Shown here: one piece after another, positions 1,154 to 52,113 of the stretch
Layout: each line of letters begins with the position of its first letter
Numbering within the stretch: position 1 is the first letter of the stretch
Assembly: GCA_031284585.1 (NCBI GenBank)
Contig: JAITXT010000008.1
Span: 1-64,000 of the forward strand
Source: Acholeplasmatales bacterium
Lineage (GTDB): Bacteria > Bacillota_I > Bacilli_A > Acholeplasmatales > Acholeplasmataceae
DNA: 64,000 nucleotides
Direction: 5' to 3'
Notes under the pieces: model-generated
What the model was told of the DNA's origin: nothing
The model's input: the letters and a program-made list of their open reading frames with translations, nothing else
Databases searched by the model: none
Program-made: the position numbers and the translations under genes

Positions 1154-4100
1154 ATGATAGATAAAATATCAAATTTAAAGGGTATCACAATTCAGACAAA
1201 TTATTTAATTAATGTTTCTGGAACAAGTCCTGATTCATATAATCCCCCTTATGTGACATTAAAGGCTGGAGGAGCTTTATTATTTAAGTTCATTATACAA
1301 TCTTTATCTAGTTTGGAAACTATTTGTTCAGCGAGACTAATGTTATATTTCTTAACTCCCTATGTAAATAGTGAAGTAAGAGTCCATAGAGTAACAGGTG
1401 TTTATAATCCATCAAATTGTACAAGAATGCCAACATATGATCAAACTCCTTTATATGAAAAAGGTTTTAGTGCTACCGATGAAGAGCATGGAATGCTAAT
1501 AGATTTGACTGCTCTTATTAAAGATTGGAGAGAAAATCCAACTGCAATTTTAGCAATTGCAATATTGCCTAAATCAAGTACAAATTTAGTAATAGCTACT
1601 CCAGCATATTCTAATTTAGCAAACATCGAGTGTATGAGAATTGATACCTCAGTTGTTCTTGGTTTAGAAAGTTATTATAATTACTCTACTCAAGATATAG
1701 GATTCGCAGGGAAAGGATATGTGAACAACTTAAGTGGAGAATTACTTTTGAAATTTGATGGTATCTCAACAGACTCGGCTAAAATACCAATAAATTTTCA
1801 AGCTTATTATGCTAATAGATCATTTTTATTTCCAGATTACCCAAATAATTCACTAGATGGTAATTTTAGATCAATTTTTGACTATGGAATAACTATAAAT
1901 GATGATTCAATAAAACTTTTCGCTCCTTCTGGAGCTATAGGTGTATTTGATAAGATTCTTATGGAAAATTATTCAAAATATGATATTGAAGAGATAGTTC
2001 CTTATGTTTTCCTTAACTTTTCAGATTATTCATATTTAGTCCGATCAGGTGGTACTGGTGTTACAAATTATGTTTTAAAAACAAGAGAAGGGAATAAGTT
2101 ATCTTTTGGTCTAGATTCATCAGGATTTTGGCTTTTAAGATTAACAAAAGAAGATGATTCATATATAGAGTATGCTCATTCAACATCAACAGGAAAAATA
2201 ACTTCAGCGACTTCTTATACTTCCTCAACTCCTGTTGAATCGAGACAAGTAACAATTGTATATGACTCAAACGGAAGAATTACAACAGTTAATTTCATTA
2301 ATGAAAATAAGAGACTTCTCTTAAGTTATAGCTATGAAAATTTATCACAGATTATTCTTCAGAAAGTAATTTATAATATTTCTTCTGCTGGAACAATAAT
2401 TACATATGAAGAAATTGGTAAAGCAATATATAGGTATGTTTCTTTGCATAAATTATATCTTGTTGGCGATTACTATCTAAATATAGGTTATGATTATCTC
2501 AATAATCAAAATAATAAAATAACTAAAGTTACTGAATTAAATTGGGAATCGCAAACAACTGGACAATTTATTGATCTTTCTTATTATAATTCATATACCA
2601 AAATTACAAATTTTGATAACGAGTTTTGTTATCTCTATTTTGACGATTATGGAACATTACTTCAAAGCGTTAATAAATTTGGAGATTCTGAATCTACAAA
2701 CTATATTTCAGCAGGATTTGAAGGTGTATCTAGAAAACCATCAAATACTTCAAATATTATTCCAAGTTTAAAGAACGCTATAGTAGATCATAGTTTTGAG
2801 ATATCTAATGACTCTATTTCTTCAAATTCTATTGGATGGCAGACAAATAATATTTCAAATGTCAAAGTAATAGATGGTGGAGTATATGGCGAAAAATATT
2901 TAGCAATTACAAAATCCTCTTCAACAACCACAAATGTTTATCAAACAATTAGATATTTGAAAAGTGGGACTTACAAATTAGTTTTCCTAGCCAAAGCACC
3001 TAATATTACAGGACAGTCTAGAGTAAAGGTTGATGTACTTGTAACAGTAAAAAGTTATGATGTTGATGAATCTAATTATATCGGAGAAGATGAAAATGGT
3101 CGATTTAGACTTATTTCAAACCGGACAACTTACAATAGTGTTTATATAAATAATACATTTGTAAATTTCAAAGAATTATCAATTAATAGTATTGTAATAC
3201 CAAGTGGTATGTCATCCTTAGATTTTACTATAACGATAGAAGCAACACATTCATTAGGCACATTGTATATTGATGATTTTCAGTTATATCCTAGTGGTCA
3301 TAAATCTTCGTATAATTACATTGAAAATGGTTATTTTGATAATGTAACTTCATCACTCCCTCAAGATTTCACATTTACTAATTTCACTTCATCAGATTAT
3401 TTAACCGAAATTAACTATGGGGAGCCATTTAATAATGTTTTAGGAGAAAAGGTTCTTAGAGTAAGTGGTTCAAAATACGTACTTAAAACAATTCAAAAAA
3501 TCGTTAATTTATCTGGAAATGCTTTAGATAAATTTACTTTTAATATATGGGTGAAATGTTATAAGTCAGTGAGTGAAACTTTAAAGGTAGATACAACTTT
3601 CACTTATCCTGGATTTAATTCCGAAATATTTACTTTGAATTTTAAAGATTTCTTTAATGAATGGCAATTAGGCTCAATTGGCGTTGCAGCAAATAAGCCA
3701 TATACGGCAATAACCATTAAATTAAGTTATCAAGGTGAGTCAATTCTTTACGTTGATGCACTTTCATTAACAAGAGATTCATATGGAGTTCATTTCAACT
3801 ATGATGAACAAGCAAATATTTTGGAACAGGCTAGTCTTGATTCATCTTCAAGCTTAGAATATGAAAATAATCGAATTTCTTCTTCAACTAGCACAAATGG
3901 TTTAACTTTTAAATATCAATATAATATTGAGGGAAAACCTACAAAAATAATTGATAATTTTTCTAATAAGGCAGAATTTAGTTATGATTCAAGAGGGAAT
4001 AGAACTATTTCAAAAATTACTGATATTAATAATAAATTTTTACAATTTGAAAATACTTATAATTTACAAAATAAACCTATAACAACAAAAGATGAACTGG

Positions 4101-7100
4101 GTAATGTAACTAGTTATACCTATAATACAGATGGAATTTTATATAAAGTAACACATCCAAATGACTTAATTACGACTAATACATATGATAAGTTTAATAA
4201 CTTACTTCAACAAATTAACTCAAAGGGATCACAATCAAATACCAATTCTTTTCAATACAATCTAGATAGTTCTTTGAAGAAAATTATTTGCGAAAATGGT
4301 AACCAATATAATTTTGAATACGATAGTTTTAAAAGACTTTTAAATGTAAAAATAGGTGGAGAATTTTTAGTAAAATATGAATATAATGATATAAGGAATG
4401 GAATAAAAAGAGATAATATTACTAAACAAACAAATGGGTCAAATGGAGATAGTTATTCTTTTTCATATAATGATTCGTCTCAATTAACTGAAGTTTTTTT
4501 AAATAGTTCTTCATTATATAAATATGAATATGATGAATTTGGAAATATTATAAAAATAAGCGGTACAGATTTTGTAAAATATTTTTCTTACGATAATGAT
4601 ACAAAGTTAATAAGAGAAACTAGTGATGATGGGAAAAATATATATTTTGAATATGATAACCTAAAAAATATTCAAAAGATTTTTAACAATATTAATGGGT
4701 TCTCTAGAAGTGAAGATTATGAATATAGTTATGAATATAACGAATATAATAGTGATTCTTATAAATCAAGAATTGATTATGCTTTCAATGATGATTTTAT
4801 CGACTATAATATTGCATATACTGGTATTTATGGAGCTAGACCAAGATATTATGGAGTGAGTAAAGATTATGATAATATTCTTAAAAGAGATATTTGTACT
4901 TTAGATAAATATAAATCAACACTTAGATATGATTTAACTACTATTAATAAATATAGAAAATTTGCAAGTGGAACGAAATCATTTAATTATAGTGCCTGGA
5001 AAATGGATTTTCAATTTAGAAAAACTTTTTACGGTTGGTTCAAATTTGAATCATTATCTACTTTACAAGTAGGAACAAAAATTCTATCTTTTGGTATTGA
5101 TTCAGATGACTCTTGTTTTGTAACAGTTAGCCCAAGTGGGCAGAATTATTTATTTAAACTTAATGTCAAGAACGGTTCTGTTGTTACACAAATTGGATCT
5201 AACAAAACTGTTTCTTCAAGTAGTCCATATGTTTTCATTGCTTTAAAATGCAATGCGGAAGGTTCTAGTGCATCAACTCTAGAATTATATATTAATGATT
5301 TGGCTCCTGTTACTGGAACAACAAATTTATTTGCTCCTTCTTCGCTAAATATTCTAGTAATAGGAGATAGAAATTCTAGTGGTTTATCAACACAAGCAAG
5401 TCCGTTCAAAGAAAGTGTTGTTATTGCCTCAATTGGTTCTTATGAGTATTCAGAAATGCAGTTTAAATTGCTTTATGAGCAAGGAAAAAAATATTTAATC
5501 AATGATGAAGTTCATTATCCGAAAACAGGGGTAAGTTATATTAATCAAGAAACTTATGATAACATGGATGTTGTTACATTAAACGGAACTGTCTCATTTA
5601 ATTCTGGTTTAAAGCCAATAAGTTTAACTTACGCAGATTCTTCATTCAAGATTGATAAACCAAAACTGTTTGAATACGATTCTCTTTCTAAAAAACACGT
5701 TTATGGTTCTTATTCTAAACTAATGGGTTTAGGTGATTCAATCGGTAAACTTGTTTATAAATTGCCTCTTACTACTAGCGGAACGATAGGTATAGTGTTT
5801 AAAATTAATAATTCATCAAGTGGATATAGAACAATATTTTCTTTCCAAAATACTTCTAATGAAATTCTCTCTTACAAAGTAAGAACTAATAATGGTGTAG
5901 TTTTAGTTTATAATGGCACATCTATTTCGATTAATAGGAATATTGAATTGATGAGGTGGTATAAATTAGTAGTTTCATTCACAAATGGATATATTAAGAC
6001 ATATTTTGATGACGATTATGTTATTTCCACTTCAGCAACTATCAATTTAAATAATTGTTCTTTAGCTGTAGGATGTAAATTAGCTTTAAATGGTTATACA
6101 CCAGAAGAACATTTAGAAGGTAATTTAGAATTATTATCTTATACTGATAATTATTTATTTCAAACAAATATAAATCAAATTTACTCCTTGTTAGGGAATA
6201 AACATTTAATTAGAGTATATAATGAACTTGATGGACTAAGTAGAATATCAAAAGATAGAATTAAATCAAGAGATAATAGCAATGATTTGGTCCATACTTA
6301 TAATTATTATGCACCAGCAAGTAATAAAACATCTTTACGAGTAGCAAGTGTTACTAGAAGTTTTAATTCTAGTGTTGATAATTATTTATATGATTCAATG
6401 GGTAATATCACTAGTATTACTAAATCAGAAGGAGCATATTTATATCAATATGATTTTTTGAATAGATTAATTGAAGAAAAAAATCCTGTTTCTCACAAAA
6501 GAATTACCTATACTTATGGATTAAACAATAATATTAGTGTTGTTCGTTACTATAATTTAGCAAATAATATATTAGAAGAAACGTATAATTATATTTATGA
6601 TACTATATGGAAAGATAAATTAGTATCTATCACGAAAACAATTAATGGAGGAGCAACAACCACTGAATACTCTCTTTTATATAATGGATCATTTATAGGT
6701 AATCCTTCTAGTATAAATGGAACTAGTTTAACGTATCAAGGAAGAAGGCTAATAAATGTTGGCAATATAACATTTGCATATGATGAACAAGGTAACCGCA
6801 TCAGTAAGACTGGTAACGGGAATACAACTAATTATTTCTATGTAGGAAATAAACTTTTATCTTTAACTAAAGGAAATAACAGGTTATATTTCCATTACAA
6901 TGAAAAAGGATTAGTTGTTGGATTTGAATATAACAAGCAAAATTATTTTTATTTAAGAGATTTAACTGGCAATATTACAAATATTATAAATGATTTGGGA
7001 ACTTCTGTTGTTAGTTATAAATATGATGCTTGGGGTAAATGGATAAATCAATCAAATGCTTCAAATGGGCAGCAAGATGGAGATATTTTAGTAGAGATTA

Positions 7101-7960
7101 ATCCATATTTATACAAAGGGTATATTTTTGATAGTGAAACGGGTTGGTATTATTTAAAAACAAGATTTTACATTCCTGAATTAAGAAGATTTTTAAATAA
7201 TGACGATACAAAATTTATTGATAAAAATGATATGTCAACATTTAATTTATTTGTATATTGTGGGAATAATCCTGTCATGTTGATGGATGGCAGCGGGAAT
7301 TCACCGGTACCATGGTGGAGTTGGGTAATATCTGGTGCACAGTTGGCATTAGGTATTGGTCTTATGTTTGTTCCAGGAGCACAAGGGTTCGCAGCTGGAT
7401 TAATGATTGGTGGTTCATTAGGGCTTATAGCAAATGCTGCATCGCCTGCTGTAGGACAAGCAATTGGTGGAGCTTCATCCATAGCAAATGGTTGGGGAGC
7501 TTTTTCTACAGGAATGTCGATTTTAGGTCTAGGGCAAATAGGGTTAATTGGTGGTATTGGGTTGATGGCTATAGGCGGTGCAACAATGGCTTTTGGTGTC
7601 AATGAGATTGCATCGTCAGTTACCGGAAACAACTATATTCAACAATTGACGGGCATGAGTGATAGTGCCTATGGATGGACATATATTGGATTAAATGTAG
7701 CATCAAGTGTTGGACAAATTGCTGGAAGATCATATCATCTGAGATCTACTAGAGAAGTAAGATTGAGTCACGACAGTTTAAGTACAAAGGGATATCGATA
7801 TTCTGATATGAAAGGTAGACCATTATATGATTTTGATTATCCTCATGAAAATATAAGATATAATCACTATCATGGATGGCAAGGACCCAAATTGACCGGA
7901 AGAACTCGTGGACATTGGAGCTATACTAGATTAATATGGTGGTTGCTAACAGGGAGATGA
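1154..7960 (+). CDS. Rhs/WapA-type polymorphic toxin, 2268 residues
   Basis: A giant Rhs (YD-repeat) protein of the WapA kind. In order: a DNRLRE-like domain (about 30-165), YD repeats (about 300-480), two beta-sandwich, carbohydrate-binding-like stretches (about 545-880), YD repeats (about 900-1210), two LamG-like lectin folds (about 1290-1440 and 1500-1660), further YD repeats, and the Rhs-associated core (about 1930-2015) with DLTGNIT, YDAWGKW, YLKTRFYIPELRRFL and NPVMLMDGSG. After the core comes a Gly/Ala-rich hydrophobic stretch (about 2050-2150) and a His/Arg/Tyr-rich tip of about 75 residues. In this family the Rhs shell encloses a C-terminal toxin that is delivered to rival cells. The start follows a strong AAAGGAGG site. 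No signal peptide is visible, unlike WapA, so the export route is unclear. The toxin activity of the tip is inferred from position. Confidence 0.9.
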   Translation: MIDKISNLKGITIQTNYLINVSGTSPDSYNPPYVTLKAGGALLFKFIIQSLSSLETICSARLMLYFLTPYVNSEVRVHRVTGVYNPSNCTRMPTYDQTPLYEKGFSATDEEHGMLIDLTALIKDWRENPTAILAIAILPKSSTNLVIATPAYSNLANIECMRIDTSVVLGLESYYNYSTQDIGFAGKGYVNNLSGELLLKFDGISTDSAKIPINFQAYYANRSFLFPDYPNNSLDGNFRSIFDYGITINDDSIKLFAPSGAIGVFDKILMENYSKYDIEEIVPYVFLNFSDYSYLVRSGGTGVTNYVLKTREGNKLSFGLDSSGFWLLRLTKEDDSYIEYAHSTSTGKITSATSYTSSTPVESRQVTIVYDSNGRITTVNFINENKRLLLSYSYENLSQIILQKVIYNISSAGTIITYEEIGKAIYRYVSLHKLYLVGDYYLNIGYDYLNNQNNKITKVTELNWESQTTGQFIDLSYYNSYTKITNFDNEFCYLYFDDYGTLLQSVNKFGDSESTNYISAGFEGVSRKPSNTSNIIPSLKNAIVDHSFEISNDSISSNSIGWQTNNISNVKVIDGGVYGEKYLAITKSSSTTTNVYQTIRYLKSGTYKLVFLAKAPNITGQSRVKVDVLVTVKSYDVDESNYIGEDENGRFRLISNRTTYNSVYINNTFVNFKELSINSIVIPSGMSSLDFTITIEATHSLGTLYIDDFQLYPSGHKSSYNYIENGYFDNVTSSLPQDFTFTNFTSSDYLTEINYGEPFNNVLGEKVLRVSGSKYVLKTIQKIVNLSGNALDKFTFNIWVKCYKSVSETLKVDTTFTYPGFNSEIFTLNFKDFFNEWQLGSIGVAANKPYTAITIKLSYQGESILYVDALSLTRDSYGVHFNYDEQANILEQASLDSSSSLEYENNRISSSTSTNGLTFKYQYNIEGKPTKIIDNFSNKAEFSYDSRGNRTISKITDINNKFLQFENTYNLQNKPITTKDELGNVTSYTYNTDGILYKVTHPNDLITTNTYDKFNNLLQQINSKGSQSNTNSFQYNLDSSLKKIICENGNQYNFEYDSFKRLLNVKIGGEFLVKYEYNDIRNGIKRDNITKQTNGSNGDSYSFSYNDSSQLTEVFLNSSSLYKYEYDEFGNIIKISGTDFVKYFSYDNDTKLIRETSDDGKNIYFEYDNLKNIQKIFNNINGFSRSEDYEYSYEYNEYNSDSYKSRIDYAFNDDFIDYNIAYTGIYGARPRYYGVSKDYDNILKRDICTLDKYKSTLRYDLTTINKYRKFASGTKSFNYSAWKMDFQFRKTFYGWFKFESLSTLQVGTKILSFGIDSDDSCFVTVSPSGQNYLFKLNVKNGSVVTQIGSNKTVSSSSPYVFIALKCNAEGSSASTLELYINDLAPVTGTTNLFAPSSLNILVIGDRNSSGLSTQASPFKESVVIASIGSYEYSEMQFKLLYEQGKKYLINDEVHYPKTGVSYINQETYDNMDVVTLNGTVSFNSGLKPISLTYADSSFKIDKPKLFEYDSLSKKHVYGSYSKLMGLGDSIGKLVYKLPLTTSGTIGIVFKINNSSSGYRTIFSFQNTSNEILSYKVRTNNGVVLVYNGTSISINRNIELMRWYKLVVSFTNGYIKTYFDDDYVISTSATINLNNCSLAVGCKLALNGYTPEEHLEGNLELLSYTDNYLFQTNINQIYSLLGNKHLIRVYNELDGLSRISKDRIKSRDNSNDLVHTYNYYAPASNKTSLRVASVTRSFNSSVDNYLYDSMGNITSITKSEGAYLYQYDFLNRLIEEKNPVSHKRITYTYGLNNNISVVRYYNLANNILEETYNYIYDTIWKDKLVSITKTINGGATTTEYSLLYNGSFIGNPSSINGTSLTYQGRRLINVGNITFAYDEQGNRISKTGNGNTTNYFYVGNKLLSLTKGNNRLYFHYNEKGLVVGFEYNKQNYFYLRDLTGNITNIINDLGTSVVSYKYDAWGKWINQSNASNGQQDGDILVEINPYLYKGYIFDSETGWYYLKTRFYIPELRRFLNNDDTKFIDKNDMSTFNLFVYCGNNPVMLMDGSGNSPVPWWSWVISGAQLALGIGLMFVPGAQGFAAGLMIGGSLGLIANAASPAVGQAIGGASSIANGWGAFSTGMSILGLGQIGLIGGIGLMAIGGATMAFGVNEIASSVTGNNYIQQLTGMSDSAYGWTYIGLNVASSVGQIAGRSYHLRSTREVRLSHDSLSTKGYRYSDMKGRPLYDFDYPHENIRYNHYHGWQGPKLTGRTRGHWSYTRLIWWLLTGR

Positions 7961-7963
7961 ATT

Positions 7964-8335
7964 ATGAAAACATTTAAGGAAAAAAAGGAAAAAAGAATAA
8001 GTAAACTTGTCAATATGCCATTTGACTCGTTATCTTTTGACGAAAAAATATATGTTATTGATTATAAGTACAATAATAATCAAAAGATAACCTATGAAGA
8101 ATTTGTGGTTCTACTTTTTGTAACTAATGATGAATTATGGTTCTGGTATGAAGACGCAGAATATCAAATTGATCATGGAATTTCTGAAATTACATCTATG
8201 TGCATGACCAAATATGATAAAGAACAAAAGGAAATCGTAAGAATAGAAAACTATTCCTCAATAATTGAATTACTTGATAAATTTAAAATTAAGAATAAAA
8301 ATATTAAAGAAATATGGAATGATGTAAGTTTTTAA
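7964..8335 (+). CDS. Putative immunity protein for the Rhs toxin
   Basis: A 123-residue acidic and lysine-rich soluble protein that begins three bases after the Rhs stop codon, with no signal peptide or membrane segment. I do not recognise the family. In Rhs/WapA loci the small gene placed directly after the variable toxin tip almost always encodes the cognate immunity protein, which protects the producer by binding the toxin. The assignment therefore rests on position, size and tight linkage only. The aromatic, acidic middle (LWFWYEDAEYQID) would fit a surface that masks a basic toxin such as the Arg/His-rich tip. Confidence 0.6.
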   Translation: MKTFKEKKEKRISKLVNMPFDSLSFDEKIYVIDYKYNNNQKITYEEFVVLLFVTNDELWFWYEDAEYQIDHGISEITSMCMTKYDKEQKEIVRIENYSSIIELLDKFKIKNKNIKEIWNDVSF

Positions 8336-8525
8336 ACTAATCATTCACATGTAATAAGTTTAGCAACATTGTTATCGAGGACTAAACTATGCTGATGTTA
8401 ATTGTGACTAAAGAAAGTACTTATCAAAGGGGTGCTAAGACTTCATTCCTTTTTCTTTTAAATATTTTTAGCAATGCCACATAGCGTCACATCTCCTATA
8501 TAAACTTTATTTGTAGGAGATAAAA

Positions 8526-8657
8526 ATTATTATAAAAATAGGAAAAACTGACAAAATAAAAGTAAAAAAGACCCTTGCTGCCTATTATAAAGATTATGGA
8601 AATAAAACTGTTCAAGAAATAGTTTTAAAACTCATAGAAAAAGATACGCAAAAGTAG
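8526..8657 (+). pseudogene. Possible TnpW-like small element protein, probably relic
   Basis: A 43-codon frame with no ATG, GTG or TTG at its beginning, but with an AGGAGA site at 8515-8520 followed after five bases by ATT ATT ATA. The translation (KIGKTDKIKVKKT near the start, ending TVQEIVLKLIEKDTQK) resembles the short TnpW proteins encoded next to large serine recombinases in Firmicutes elements. It ends nine bases before the start of the recombinase gene, as expected for an element module. Because the recombinase itself is broken, this is probably a remnant; whether ATT serves as a start is uncertain. The stretch between 8336 and 8525 shows no other gene. Confidence 0.35.
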
Positions 8658-48573: not shown

Positions 48574-49371
48574 GTGAAGAAGAAAGAGCTTGAAATAATT
48601 AAAGATTATTGTTGTGAAAAAAAATTGCTTATTAGCAAAGACATAGAAGAATTTATTGTAAATACTTTTCCTAATAGGGAAGGAACATTAATGAAATTTT
48701 ACTTTACAGAACTTTTTACTAATAACATTATCTATAGATTAAACTCAATGTATTATAAATTTAATGATAAATTAGTTAACTTCAAATATCAATACTGTAA
48801 AATTGATAATTTAATAAAAGAAAGTATTGAAAATAAATTTCCTGACATGGAAGTTTGTATTTGGAGCACAAACTTTTTATCATCTTTTATGAATTTACAA
48901 CCATATGTTTCATACACTTTCATTGAAGTTAACTCTTTTTATGTTGAATTTTTATTTGAATATTTAAAAGGTATTTATGACAATGTATTTATTAACCCTG
49001 ATGAAAGAGAGTTATTTCATTATTCAAAAGGAGATAATCCTATAATAATTAGAAAACTTCCTTTAAGATCACCTTTAGATAAACAATATACAGGGAATAT
49101 CGGTTCTATTACTAAAAAAAGTAAAAGTAAATCAAATGTCTTTAATTTGAAGATAGAAAAACTTATAGTTGATATATTTATAGATAAAGATAAAATACTT
49201 ATATATGAAGATTTAGATTTTATTATCAGAGAATTATTAAAGGTTTATTGTGTAAATTTTGTAAAGCTTCTTAGTTATGCATCTTATAGAAATGTTAGGG
49301 ACGAGCTTGAGGATTACATAAATTATATAATTGGATATGATATAACAAGGGGGGAATTTTATGATAAATGA
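48574..49371 (+). CDS. AbiEi/DUF6577-type antitoxin and regulator
   Basis: A 265-residue protein starting at GTG after GAGGTG. Residues 1-65 form a winged-helix-like region (ELEIIKDYC, ISKDIEEFI, MYYKFN) in the place of the DNA-binding domain of AbiEi antitoxins. The remaining 200 residues, with WSTNFLSSFMNLQPYVSYTFIEV and NPIIIRKLPLRSPL, follow the style of DUF6577 proteins, which stand before AbiEii toxins. It would repress its own promoter through the inverted repeat at 48499 and neutralise the toxin. The downstream toxin frame, which overlaps by 11 bases, is truncated to 48 codons, so the antitoxin is now an orphan. The family name is from memory. Confidence 0.6.
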   Translation: MKKKELEIIKDYCCEKKLLISKDIEEFIVNTFPNREGTLMKFYFTELFTNNIIYRLNSMYYKFNDKLVNFKYQYCKIDNLIKESIENKFPDMEVCIWSTNFLSSFMNLQPYVSYTFIEVNSFYVEFLFEYLKGIYDNVFINPDERELFHYSKGDNPIIIRKLPLRSPLDKQYTGNIGSITKKSKSKSNVFNLKIEKLIVDIFIDKDKILIYEDLDFIIRELLKVYCVNFVKLLSYASYRNVRDELEDYINYIIGYDITRGEFYDK

Positions 49372-49507
49372 AAATTGGATTAGAAATAAGGAAATATTTA
49401 AGGATTGGATTAATGAAAAACAATTATCCGAAGGAAATAAAGAAACTCTGGAAAAAAAGGTTTTTGCTTCGTATTATTTAGAGAAATTAACTGAACCTGA
49501 TATGTAA
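49361..49507 (+). pseudogene. Truncated AbiEii-like nucleotidyltransferase toxin
   Basis: A 48-codon frame overlaps the antitoxin gene by 11 bases and starts at ATG after GGGGGGAA. The translation begins MINENWIRNKEIFKDWI and contains ETLEKKVFASYYLEKL, which resembles the first conserved helix of AbiEii/AbiGii toxins (the EKDyyvtxxL region). It then stops at TAA, and none of the catalytic G-S/D-x-D region follows. The DNA from 49508 to 49751 has no further homologous frame, so most of the toxin was deleted. Confidence 0.5.
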
Positions 49508-49751
49508 CACCTTATATATCTTATTCGAAATAGCGAAGTATAACTGGATAAACTGGTATAATTATATTGGTTTAAAACAATAAAATACAATAATTTTCTT
49601 TAAAACGCGGAAAACAATAAAATTATTTGGTTTTTTTGAATATTATTTCTTATTTTGCATAAGAAATGGATTTAGTGATAAAATATAAATAGTAGTAAAA
49701 AAATAAGTCAAACAAACGATATGGTATTATCGGTTTTTGAAAGGGAAAGAG
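49508..49751. other. Short non-coding stretch between toxin relic and switch ORF
   Basis: AT-rich DNA with no open frame of note. It probably holds the promoter for the following short ORF; several TATAAA/T-like boxes occur but no clear -35/-10 pair. This is the likely site of the deletion that removed the toxin. Confidence 0.5.
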
Positions 49752-49915
49752 ATGAGTATGAAAATTAATTTACAACAAAACAATGAAATTATGATAATTG
49801 TGCGGGGGGGGGGCAACTATATTATAATTTAAGAAATTTTCTTAAAAATAGTATAAAATGTTCTCTGTTTTTAAATCTTGAGGCAAGTAATATTGATTGG
49901 AATGGTTCAAGATGA
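49752..49915 (+). CDS. Short ORF with a 10-G tract, out of frame in this copy, overlapping the restriction gene
   Basis: AGGGAAAGAG precedes ATG at 49752. In this copy the frame runs MSMKINLQQNNEIMIIVRGGG and stops at 49830-49832, soon after the G tract. With 8 or 11 G residues it would instead continue through LYYNLRNFLKNSIKC to a TGA at 49913-49915 that overlaps the ATG of the methyltransferase gene as ATGA. The full product would have about 54 residues and no family I know. The arrangement looks like a phase-variable leader whose reading frame sets translation of the next gene. Confidence 0.55.
49804..49813. repeat. Homopolymeric G10 tract
   Basis: Ten consecutive G residues in DNA that is otherwise over 70 percent A/T. 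Such tracts change length by slipped-strand pairing during replication and are typical contingency switches. Confidence 0.9.
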
Positions 49916-52113
49916 GAACAAATTATTTAACTGAAAAAGAGGGACAATTTGAATTTTATCAAGAATTTTGCGGATTATCAAATGCTCAAGTTCAAAAATA
50001 TTTATTAGTAAATTCAGATGGAATTTGGAATGGGAATTTATTAGAGTTTAAGTTAAATGTCCAAAATATTGATAAAGATTTATCACAATGTATCATTTAT
50101 TTAAGCAAATTAAGATTAAAAGGGATACCTTTACCAGCAAATATATTGTTAATATCTTTGAATCAGGGAGTATTATATCTTTTTAGGACTGATAATTATT
50201 TAAAAGAAATACACATTGTATATAATAATAGTGCATCACACGGAATAAAAAAATTTACAAACCAATTTTCTAAAATAGACTATAATTTCACTGATATTAA
50301 TAACGAAAAAAAAATTAAATTGCAACTTAAAGAAAAAGGATATGTTAAAGTAGACGTTGATATAAACAACGTGGTTGCTTTGGCAAATATTTATTACCAA
50401 ATAACAAAAAAAAGGAAAGTTGATTTTATGGATGAATTAAGAAATCCAAGTGATTTATATTGGATTAATTCTTATCAACAAAACAATAATAGTGAATTCA
50501 GATTTGTTTTGGATTTATTAAATGATAAAATTAATAAGAAAGAACTTGGTGCTTTTTATACCCCTAAAGAATACGCAATTAAAAGTATTGAATTAGTTAG
50601 AAAAGCAATTAGTTTAGTTCCTGATGGGAATGATTATATTATTCTTGATAGATGTGCAGGAAGTGGAAATCTTGAGAGATATTTGACAGAAGAAGAATTA
50701 GACCATTGTATTTTATCAACATTTGAATATATTGAGTGGATTGAATTATATAATGAGTTCAATGATAGAGTTAGATATATCATTCCACCAGTAAAGCCTA
50801 TTTATAATTCTTCTGATGTGGATAGCGGATTAATTGTGTCGGCAGATGCTCTTAATAAAGCGTTTATTGATAATGCAGAGATAAAACGTTATCTCAATAA
50901 TCCAAAATGTTCTATTATTTTATTTGAAAATCCTCCATATAGAGATGAAACGAGTGGAATGACAGGCATTAAAGCAAAAGGAAAAAAAACCAAAAGTTTT
51001 ATTTTAGAAGAAATGGTTAAAAATGGTATATCGAAAACTAATGAGTTGGCAAATCAATTTATTTGGAGCGGTATCAATTATTATTTAAGACAAGAAACAG
51101 ATTCTTATGTTTTGTATTCCCCAGTTAAATATTGGAAACTTGACAAACTGGTAGATAGATATTTTGGAGATGGGTTTGTATTTAACAGGGAACATTTCCA
51201 CGCCTCAAAGAGTGCAGTTTCTTGTATTTGGTGGCAAAACAAACCTGAGGATAGAAAGGGGGTTTTAAATCAAATACCTCTTGGAGTTTATAATATAGTT
51301 GATAATAACCTCAAATATGAAAGAGAAATCTTTGTGAAAAGGTGTGATTATCAAGTATCAGTTTATTTTGATAAAACCACTTATCCTACTGATGTAGTGG
51401 ATGATACAGTAGTTAGTGGTAATGGCTATGAATCCTTTAAAAAAGTAAAAGGGATTTATAATAATAACATAGTTGCATACATAACTGGAGCAGGATTTGG
51501 AATATCTCATCCGCAGTTAAACTTTAATCTATTAACTTGCACGTGCGACCATAAACACGGATTTTATTTAAGGGACAATAATTGGTATGAAAAACTTCCA
51601 ATTTTAGCAGTTAAAAATGGGCTTTGTATTAGAAAGTGGTTCGAAAACGAGTTAATATGTTGTAGTGCAGATTTGGGAAACAAATATACTCAAGATAGTA
51701 TTTTCTTACAAAATTGTTTTATATTTGCTTGTCTTTGCGATTATAATAAATGCTTGTCTTTTGAATCAAAAAAAGGAAGATTATATCTTAATAAATTATG
51801 CTTTGATTATGATACTCTTGCTATGAATAAACTAAAAACTATGACATTATCTACTGAAGATAATAAATTAATAGATGCTTGGAATAAGGTTTTAAGTGAG
51901 GCGAAGTCAAAAAGCGAATATATTCCTACATATAGATATGGAACATATCAAATATCTAAAGAAATAAATACTTTTACAAGAGATGTAAATGGGAAAAGAA
52001 TATTTAATTACCCAACTTTAAATACAAACTTAATAAACCTTAAAAAAATAGTAAATGATTATTTTGAAAGAAATATTCTACAAAAATTATATGATTATGA
52101 ATTACTAAAGTGA
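49912..52113 (+). CDS. Restriction-modification fusion: putative nuclease plus N6-adenine methyltransferase (type IIG-like)
   Basis: The ATG at 49912 overlaps the stop of the short upstream ORF; 733 residues result. Near the N-terminus, Asp36-(x8)-Glu45-x-Lys47 (DGIWNGNLLEFKL) fits a PD-(D/E)xK nuclease. The central methyltransferase has GAFYTPKEYA, motif I ILDRCAGSGNL (about 245-255) and motif IV ENPPY (about 342-346), characteristic of adenine-N6 enzymes. The C-terminal 350 residues would hold the target-recognition domain. One chain able to cut and methylate is the type IIG plan. A decayed copy of the C-terminal part follows. The nuclease part is inferred from a short motif. Confidence 0.8.
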   Translation: MRTNYLTEKEGQFEFYQEFCGLSNAQVQKYLLVNSDGIWNGNLLEFKLNVQNIDKDLSQCIIYLSKLRLKGIPLPANILLISLNQGVLYLFRTDNYLKEIHIVYNNSASHGIKKFTNQFSKIDYNFTDINNEKKIKLQLKEKGYVKVDVDINNVVALANIYYQITKKRKVDFMDELRNPSDLYWINSYQQNNNSEFRFVLDLLNDKINKKELGAFYTPKEYAIKSIELVRKAISLVPDGNDYIILDRCAGSGNLERYLTEEELDHCILSTFEYIEWIELYNEFNDRVRYIIPPVKPIYNSSDVDSGLIVSADALNKAFIDNAEIKRYLNNPKCSIILFENPPYRDETSGMTGIKAKGKKTKSFILEEMVKNGISKTNELANQFIWSGINYYLRQETDSYVLYSPVKYWKLDKLVDRYFGDGFVFNREHFHASKSAVSCIWWQNKPEDRKGVLNQIPLGVYNIVDNNLKYEREIFVKRCDYQVSVYFDKTTYPTDVVDDTVVSGNGYESFKKVKGIYNNNIVAYITGAGFGISHPQLNFNLLTCTCDHKHGFYLRDNNWYEKLPILAVKNGLCIRKWFENELICCSADLGNKYTQDSIFLQNCFIFACLCDYNKCLSFESKKGRLYLNKLCFDYDTLAMNKLKTMTLSTEDNKLIDAWNKVLSEAKSKSEYIPTYRYGTYQISKEINTFTRDVNGKRIFNYPTLNTNLINLKKIVNDYFERNILQKLYDYELLK

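Follow-up and report, generated by a model that had tools for sequence, protein, structure and literature searches.

What does a run of ten G residues do just ahead of, and outside, the gene for a restriction-modification (R-M) enzyme in the AT-rich DNA of an Acholeplasmatales bacterium? The run lies inside a short leader ORF of the window (the whole 64,000-nucleotide stretch that we analysed), in flanks that are 75% A+T when the tract itself is left out. The longest other G run in the window is 6 at most, and a first-order model of 64 kb expects 0.0034 runs of 10 or more G on the tract's strand. We propose, as the probable explanation, that this G10 is a slipped-strand phase-variation switch which acts from a translated leader ORF, outside the enzyme gene. 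The parts of the locus are these:

49676..49684, + strand: possible extended -10 (TGATAAAAT), belonging to a promoter that would precede the leader ORF
49740..49751, + strand: ribosome-binding-like AAAGGGAAAGAG ahead of the leader ATG
49752..49832, + strand: leader ORF as assembled, with 10 G (the OFF phase), ending at TAA 49830-49832
49804..49813, + strand: G10 tract, the proposed slippage switch
49814..49915, + strand: leader tail, read with 8 or 11 G only (shuffle P 0.040)
49859..49920, + strand: predicted RNA hairpin, its 5' arm in the leader tail and its 3' arm (49906-49920) holding the enzyme start codon
49912..52113, + strand: 733-aa type IIG-like fused restriction-modification enzyme, with D36/E45/K47, an AdoMet motif and NPPY at 340-343

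Which stop codon a ribosome starting at the leader ATG (49752) would meet depends on the number of G. With the 10 G of the assembly it is the TAA at 49830-49832, and with 9 G a stop 14 nt beyond the tract; with 8 or 11 G the frame is open to a TGA at 49913-49915, 83 nt later than the 10-G stop, which overlaps the enzyme ATG (49912-49914) as ATGA. One leader frame of the three (8, 11 ... G) thus brings the ribosome to a stop on the enzyme ATG, and the other two end within 14-19 nt of the tract; in shuffled tails, the chance of one open frame running from the tract to a start-overlapping stop was 0.040. The earlier note, made from the bare letters, had described ten G in DNA of more than 70% A/T, a short ORF with a ribosome site, an ATGA overlap reached with 8 or 11 G, and a 10-G form that stops about 80 bases sooner, and each of these points agrees with the coordinates given here. 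A leader-enzyme fusion protein was considered and rejected: the frame that matches the enzyme (9 or 12 G) stops 14 nt past the tract. The extended -10 candidate was missed by our consensus promoter scan, which requires a -35 box. There is no Rfam element at the locus, a DNA-pattern search of IMG/VR gave no identical locus, and no second genome carrying the exact window locus was found.

Homopolymers can also switch genes as promoter spacers, as in the porA type of Neisseria, and the tract might accordingly lie between the -35 and -10 boxes of an enzyme promoter and tune transcription, the leader ORF being incidental. A TATAAT at 49823-49828, downstream of the tract, and a TTGTGC directly upstream of it would stand at 17-bp spacing if there were 8 G, and the design exists in the same order: in the sister family f3, 17 tracts of at least 10 G are flanked by TTGACA- and TATAAT-like boxes that reach 11-12 of 12 matches, and two more score 10. 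Like these switches, the window has a long G tract ahead of a gene, but the box pair across its tract is no better than chance (best match 9 of 12, equalled by 26% of shuffles), and the flanking boxes at about 17 bp that characterise promoter spacers are not recognisable there; same-family leader tracts are similarly shuffle-like, at 8-9 of 12. Nor does the promoter model explain the open frame that ends on the start codon, or the pentamer, heptamer and AG repeats in the leaders of homologs described below. For the window tract we consider it unlikely. The f3 genomes themselves, judging from their box matches, have extensive promoter-spacer phase variation; their many G10-G12 tracts between TTGACA and TATAAT (L053, L059, L060, L066, L069, L074, L076, L081, L082, L084, L086, L087, L091, L093, L096 and L097) are often at lipoprotein-like genes.

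The gene behind the leader had been described as a methyltransferase, which holds for its N6-MTase motifs, but its product is a fused R-M-type protein, and so more than a methyltransferase. The protein has no match in Pfam, NCBIfam or PADLOC, and as a single query in a genome scan it returned nothing; an alignment query of one-genome-per-species contigs found 80 homologous loci, most of them at 30-45% identity, in Bacilli, Clostridia, Bacteroidales, Treponema, Mesomycoplasma, Pasteurellaceae and others, and these are consistent with the enzyme start at 49912. An alignment of 50 members shows no exception at E45 or K47 and hardly any at D36, a PD-(D/E)xK signature; much of the AdoMet motif and N340-P341-P342 are likewise invariant. 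D36...E45-x-K47 sits on predicted strands, with no direct nuclease match. The best structural matches of the AlphaFold model (mean pLDDT 86) include the adenine methyltransferase M.BseCI and HsdM, at modest TM-scores; 9 of the 50 members match one MTase_II model and 1 matches REase_MTase_IIG, all of them weakly. The protein is a single chain with N6-MTase motifs (AdoMet motif, NPPY), as expected of type IIG enzymes, and we label it type IIG-like because the window protein matches no curated type IIG family. On these motifs we take it to be a type IIG-like fused R-M protein with a predicted nuclease activity; its R-M family has no Pfam model.

The enzyme protein has no match in phages, and on plasmids its distant homologs occur in four Limosilactobacillus records, with nothing closer; no such leader was seen in the two Limosilactobacillus upstream regions that were read, and on an L. 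fermentum plasmid (L009 4971-7435) the annotation splits the homolog into two ORFs. Just ahead of the R-M locus of the window, at 48574-49507, lie an AbiEi-like gene (DUF6577) and then a 48-codon ORF, which occupies the expected place of the AbiEii toxin gene and has no PADLOC match.

Do homologs of the enzyme carry comparable leaders? About 68 of 76 have no repeat near the enzyme 5' end. Where repeats are found there they are long, with differing units; the 660 kb around homologs contain 12 long repeats, and 8 of these are located within the enzyme 5' end or immediately ahead of it. Streptococcus australis and S. cristatus have (TCACAGC)10 in a leader reading MNAIT...LQYA, whose stop overlaps the ATG by 8 nt; the leader of Gallibacterium contains (CGCAA)19 and also overlaps the enzyme start by 8 nt, that of Avibacterium contains (GCAAC)23 and leaves a 1-nt gap to it, and in Bifidobacteriaceae the third frame of an (AG)19 repeat ends on the enzyme start codon. 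Several homolog contigs end within the repeat array, and there the leader start is not visible. Because unrelated bacteria use different repeats with the same leader design, several origins are suggested: other lineages, using other repeats, may have arrived at the leader-frame logic on their own. The (AG)11 of Mesomycoplasma ovipneumoniae and the G9 of a Rickettsiales bin (L174 and L172) lie inside the enzyme N-terminus.

In Streptococcus the enzyme homolog occurs in 16 of 285 genomes and the leader tail at 45 places in 40 of the 285 (L224-L253). Thirty of these places were read and 29 parsed, and in all 29 the open frame overlaps the start of the next gene by 1-8 nt or stops 1 nt before it (at L248 our script took an upstream TTG as the start; the ATG lies 1 nt past the stop). 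The number of repeat units ranges from 0 to 23, differs between species and shifts the frame: eight leaders are ON and twelve OFF, and the other nine are unphased, mostly on contigs that end in the array. The 10-unit leader of S. cristatus A53 is predicted to be ON. Eight representative downstream genes comprise an EcoRI-type methyltransferase, four N6-MTase/type IIG-like genes, two type III Mod genes and one gene from another clade of the window's enzyme family, itself without a library match. The Streptococcus leader thus reads as a reusable module in front of diverse R-M genes. We found no mention of this heptamer-repeat leader in the pneumococcal tvr papers, and neither a TCACAGC heptamer leader nor leader-peptide switching of R-M was found in the open-licence literature. 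In the type III mod phasevarions of Haemophilus, Neisseria and Moraxella the repeats lie within the mod ORF. The window would resemble these in that slippage of a repeat randomly switches a DNA methyltransferase on and off, and differs from them in having the repeat in a leader and not in the enzyme ORF; type III mod-like genes themselves also stand behind the Streptococcus module.

Closer to the window, the whole host genome (1.23 Mb) contains two tracts of at least 9 G, and both lie in leader ORFs of defence genes. A third such leader was found in another genus of the same family:

G000:C25:8617-8627 (L041; operon about 1478-8650), minus strand: second tract of the host genome, a G11 in a leader ORF, assembled OFF
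L102 1500-8172 (G018:C71): type III-A CRISPR operon behind a G11 leader ORF

The second leader begins with GTG and is followed by genes for a GIY-YIG protein, a C5-methyltransferase, a MORC-type ATPase and a Z1 helicase, and by a fifth gene; with 10 G it would end at a TAG overlapping the ATG of the first of these (ATGTTAG), and in shuffled tails the chance that a frame stays open up to a stop on that start is 0.0077. The leader of the CRISPR locus, again with 10 G, would stop on the ATG (ATGAGTAG) that begins a Csm6-like gene, behind which Cas10, Csm2 and RAMP genes follow; here the chance is 0.043. Taken jointly, the three defence leaders have a chance of about 1e-5 if independent, and all three are assembled OFF. 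The type III-A CRISPR operon of G018 is possibly a phase-variable system. Since the three leader peptides look unrelated by eye, a mobile cassette common to them was rejected and convergence is preferred.

A screen of the G/C tracts of at least 8 fetched up to that point, for a leader start and a tail of at least 80 nt ending on a downstream start, returned the three defence loci and one glycosyltransferase-gene tract. In L056 / L036 a glycosyltransferase gene has a G10 close to its 3' end, and the open frame ends on the start of the next glycosyltransferase. The leader of a BspA-like lipoprotein (G018:C95) was not counted, as it falls short of the gene's start. G tracts per se are no marker of defence, because the majority of G9 tracts in same-family genomes lie away from defence genes. 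Two further tracts were noted in passing: L048 (G050:C1:119363), from a very small genome, has a G10 in the gene of a transporter-like membrane protein, and with 9 G its frame would stay open longer; L055 and L100, from different families, have closely similar tract flanks (CCTTGCCTCTTC...Gn-TAACTTATAAAATGTTATTATCC) ahead of unrelated genes.

These relatives bear on two sceptical explanations. There might be no switch at all, the tract being a homopolymer assembly error or part of a decayed leader, with the enzyme simply expressed or silent; the locus is known from one assembly of 29 contigs, 77% complete, in which the length of G10 is an assembly consensus and not a measured distribution, and most homologs lack a repeat. 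That both G tracts of the genome share one design at defence genes, and that other lineages converge on it, makes this very improbable. Alternatively, the tract might be a site of RNA-polymerase or ribosome slippage that gives each cell a steady low expression, with no heritable switching. G10 is slippery, and the OFF assembly of all three same-family defence leaders would fit; the relatives, however, carry long tandem repeats that differ in copy number from species to species, and these are not transcriptional slippery sites, so that we give this explanation equally little credence.

How, then, would the reading frame of the leader reach the enzyme? From tract to start, the window RNA folds better than 200 of 200 shuffles (z -4.1), and the hairpin at 49859-49920 (dG -16.8 kcal/mol, z -2.9) is predicted to pair the enzyme AUG with a segment of the leader beyond both early stops. 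Opening the enzyme start is costlier than at nearly all the gene starts compared (rank 5 of 81; P 0.032 vs shuffled tails). The hairpin begins 46 nt past the tract, the OFF stops lie 14-19 nt past it and the ON stop is at the start codon, and so the frame would decide whether the leader ribosome reaches the RNA structure, as in the pil1 kind of leader switch. The enzyme start of Gallibacterium is likewise buried (z -3.3, P 0.047); the whole-tail fold of the second G-tract locus is not significant (z about 0), and the folds of the remaining loci are individually not significant.

The same frames could instead work by transcription attenuation, as in Streptococcus gallolyticus pil1, and not by opening the start codon. 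This mode of control is published (PMC3894217), the Streptococcus leaders of the enzyme family have a terminator-like hairpin in the tail instead, and the Csm leader has an AT-rich hairpin and then a U run; in the window there is no terminator-like site between 49372 and 49960, the intrinsic terminator of the pil1 kind is missing, and the hairpin closes the AUG. We regard attenuation as doubtful for the window, and opening of the start codon as the preferred mechanism there. At some related loci attenuation may act beside translational coupling or in place of it: what the leader ribosome removes in Streptococcus, and possibly also at the CRISPR locus, may be a terminator-like hairpin and not a closed start codon.

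The nearest published precedent is the control of the pili Pil1/Pil3 of S. gallolyticus by attenuation, which depends on GCAGA repeats within a leader peptide (PMC3894217). The window resembles it in having, ahead of the gene that would be controlled, a short ORF that carries a repeat of unstable type and a start and ribosome-binding site of its own, and in that the frame is predicted to set the access of ribosomes to a downstream hairpin, an early stop meaning low expression. It differs in having a G homopolymer and an R-M enzyme in place of GCAGA and pili, an ON-frame stop overlapping the start codon of the enzyme and, where pil1 has a transcription terminator, a predicted hairpin closing that codon. 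The locus is thus pil1-like in logic, and we do not file it as the same attenuator; the earlier description of the leader-ORF form as unusual is fair, but pil1 is a published precedent. Campylobacter jejuni Cj0031 is a phase-variable type IIG gene with a polyG inside the gene (PMC4889913). Like the switch proposed for the window, it pairs a polyG with a single-chain restriction-methylation enzyme, a resemblance by description; in the window, unlike Cj0031, the tract occupies a leader ORF of its own, and the enzyme gene is intact in every phase.

The proposed slippage switch in the leader would work as follows. Replication slippage would lengthen or shorten the G tract. When the phase is ON, a ribosome translating the leader would melt the hairpin and terminate at the enzyme start codon, and translation of the enzyme would follow by coupling or re-initiation; when it is OFF (10 G), the ribosome would leave early, the hairpin would remain closed and little enzyme would be produced. 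The switched product being a fused restriction-modification enzyme, cells would alternate between a restricting and methylating state and a non-restricting one. That the tract controls the gene through leader coupling and not from within it, as the earlier note had supposed, is favoured by the anatomy, by the convergent leaders and by a promoter model that scores at chance. Loss of mismatch repair as the cause of slippage found no support, as MutS-family genes are present; because MutS-family proteins are encoded in the host genome, mismatch repair may damp slippage of the tract.

Considering these loci together, we lean, somewhat less firmly than for the window itself, towards the view that leader-ORF frame switches are a general, convergent control of bacterial defence genes, with a proposed scope of R-M types II, IIG and III, the C5-MTase/MORC/Z1 system and a type III CRISPR operon. 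Gene-centred surveys miss such switches because the repeat falls outside the annotated gene, and searches for phase-variable R-M that are confined to methyltransferase genes would overlook repeats in unannotated leader ORFs. In the Streptococcus module the mechanism is directly testable in culturable species. If the general reading is true, many R-M systems, at least one CRISPR locus and one MORC/Z1 locus would be stochastically switched, and phage sensitivity, gene uptake and methylation would vary among clonal cells.
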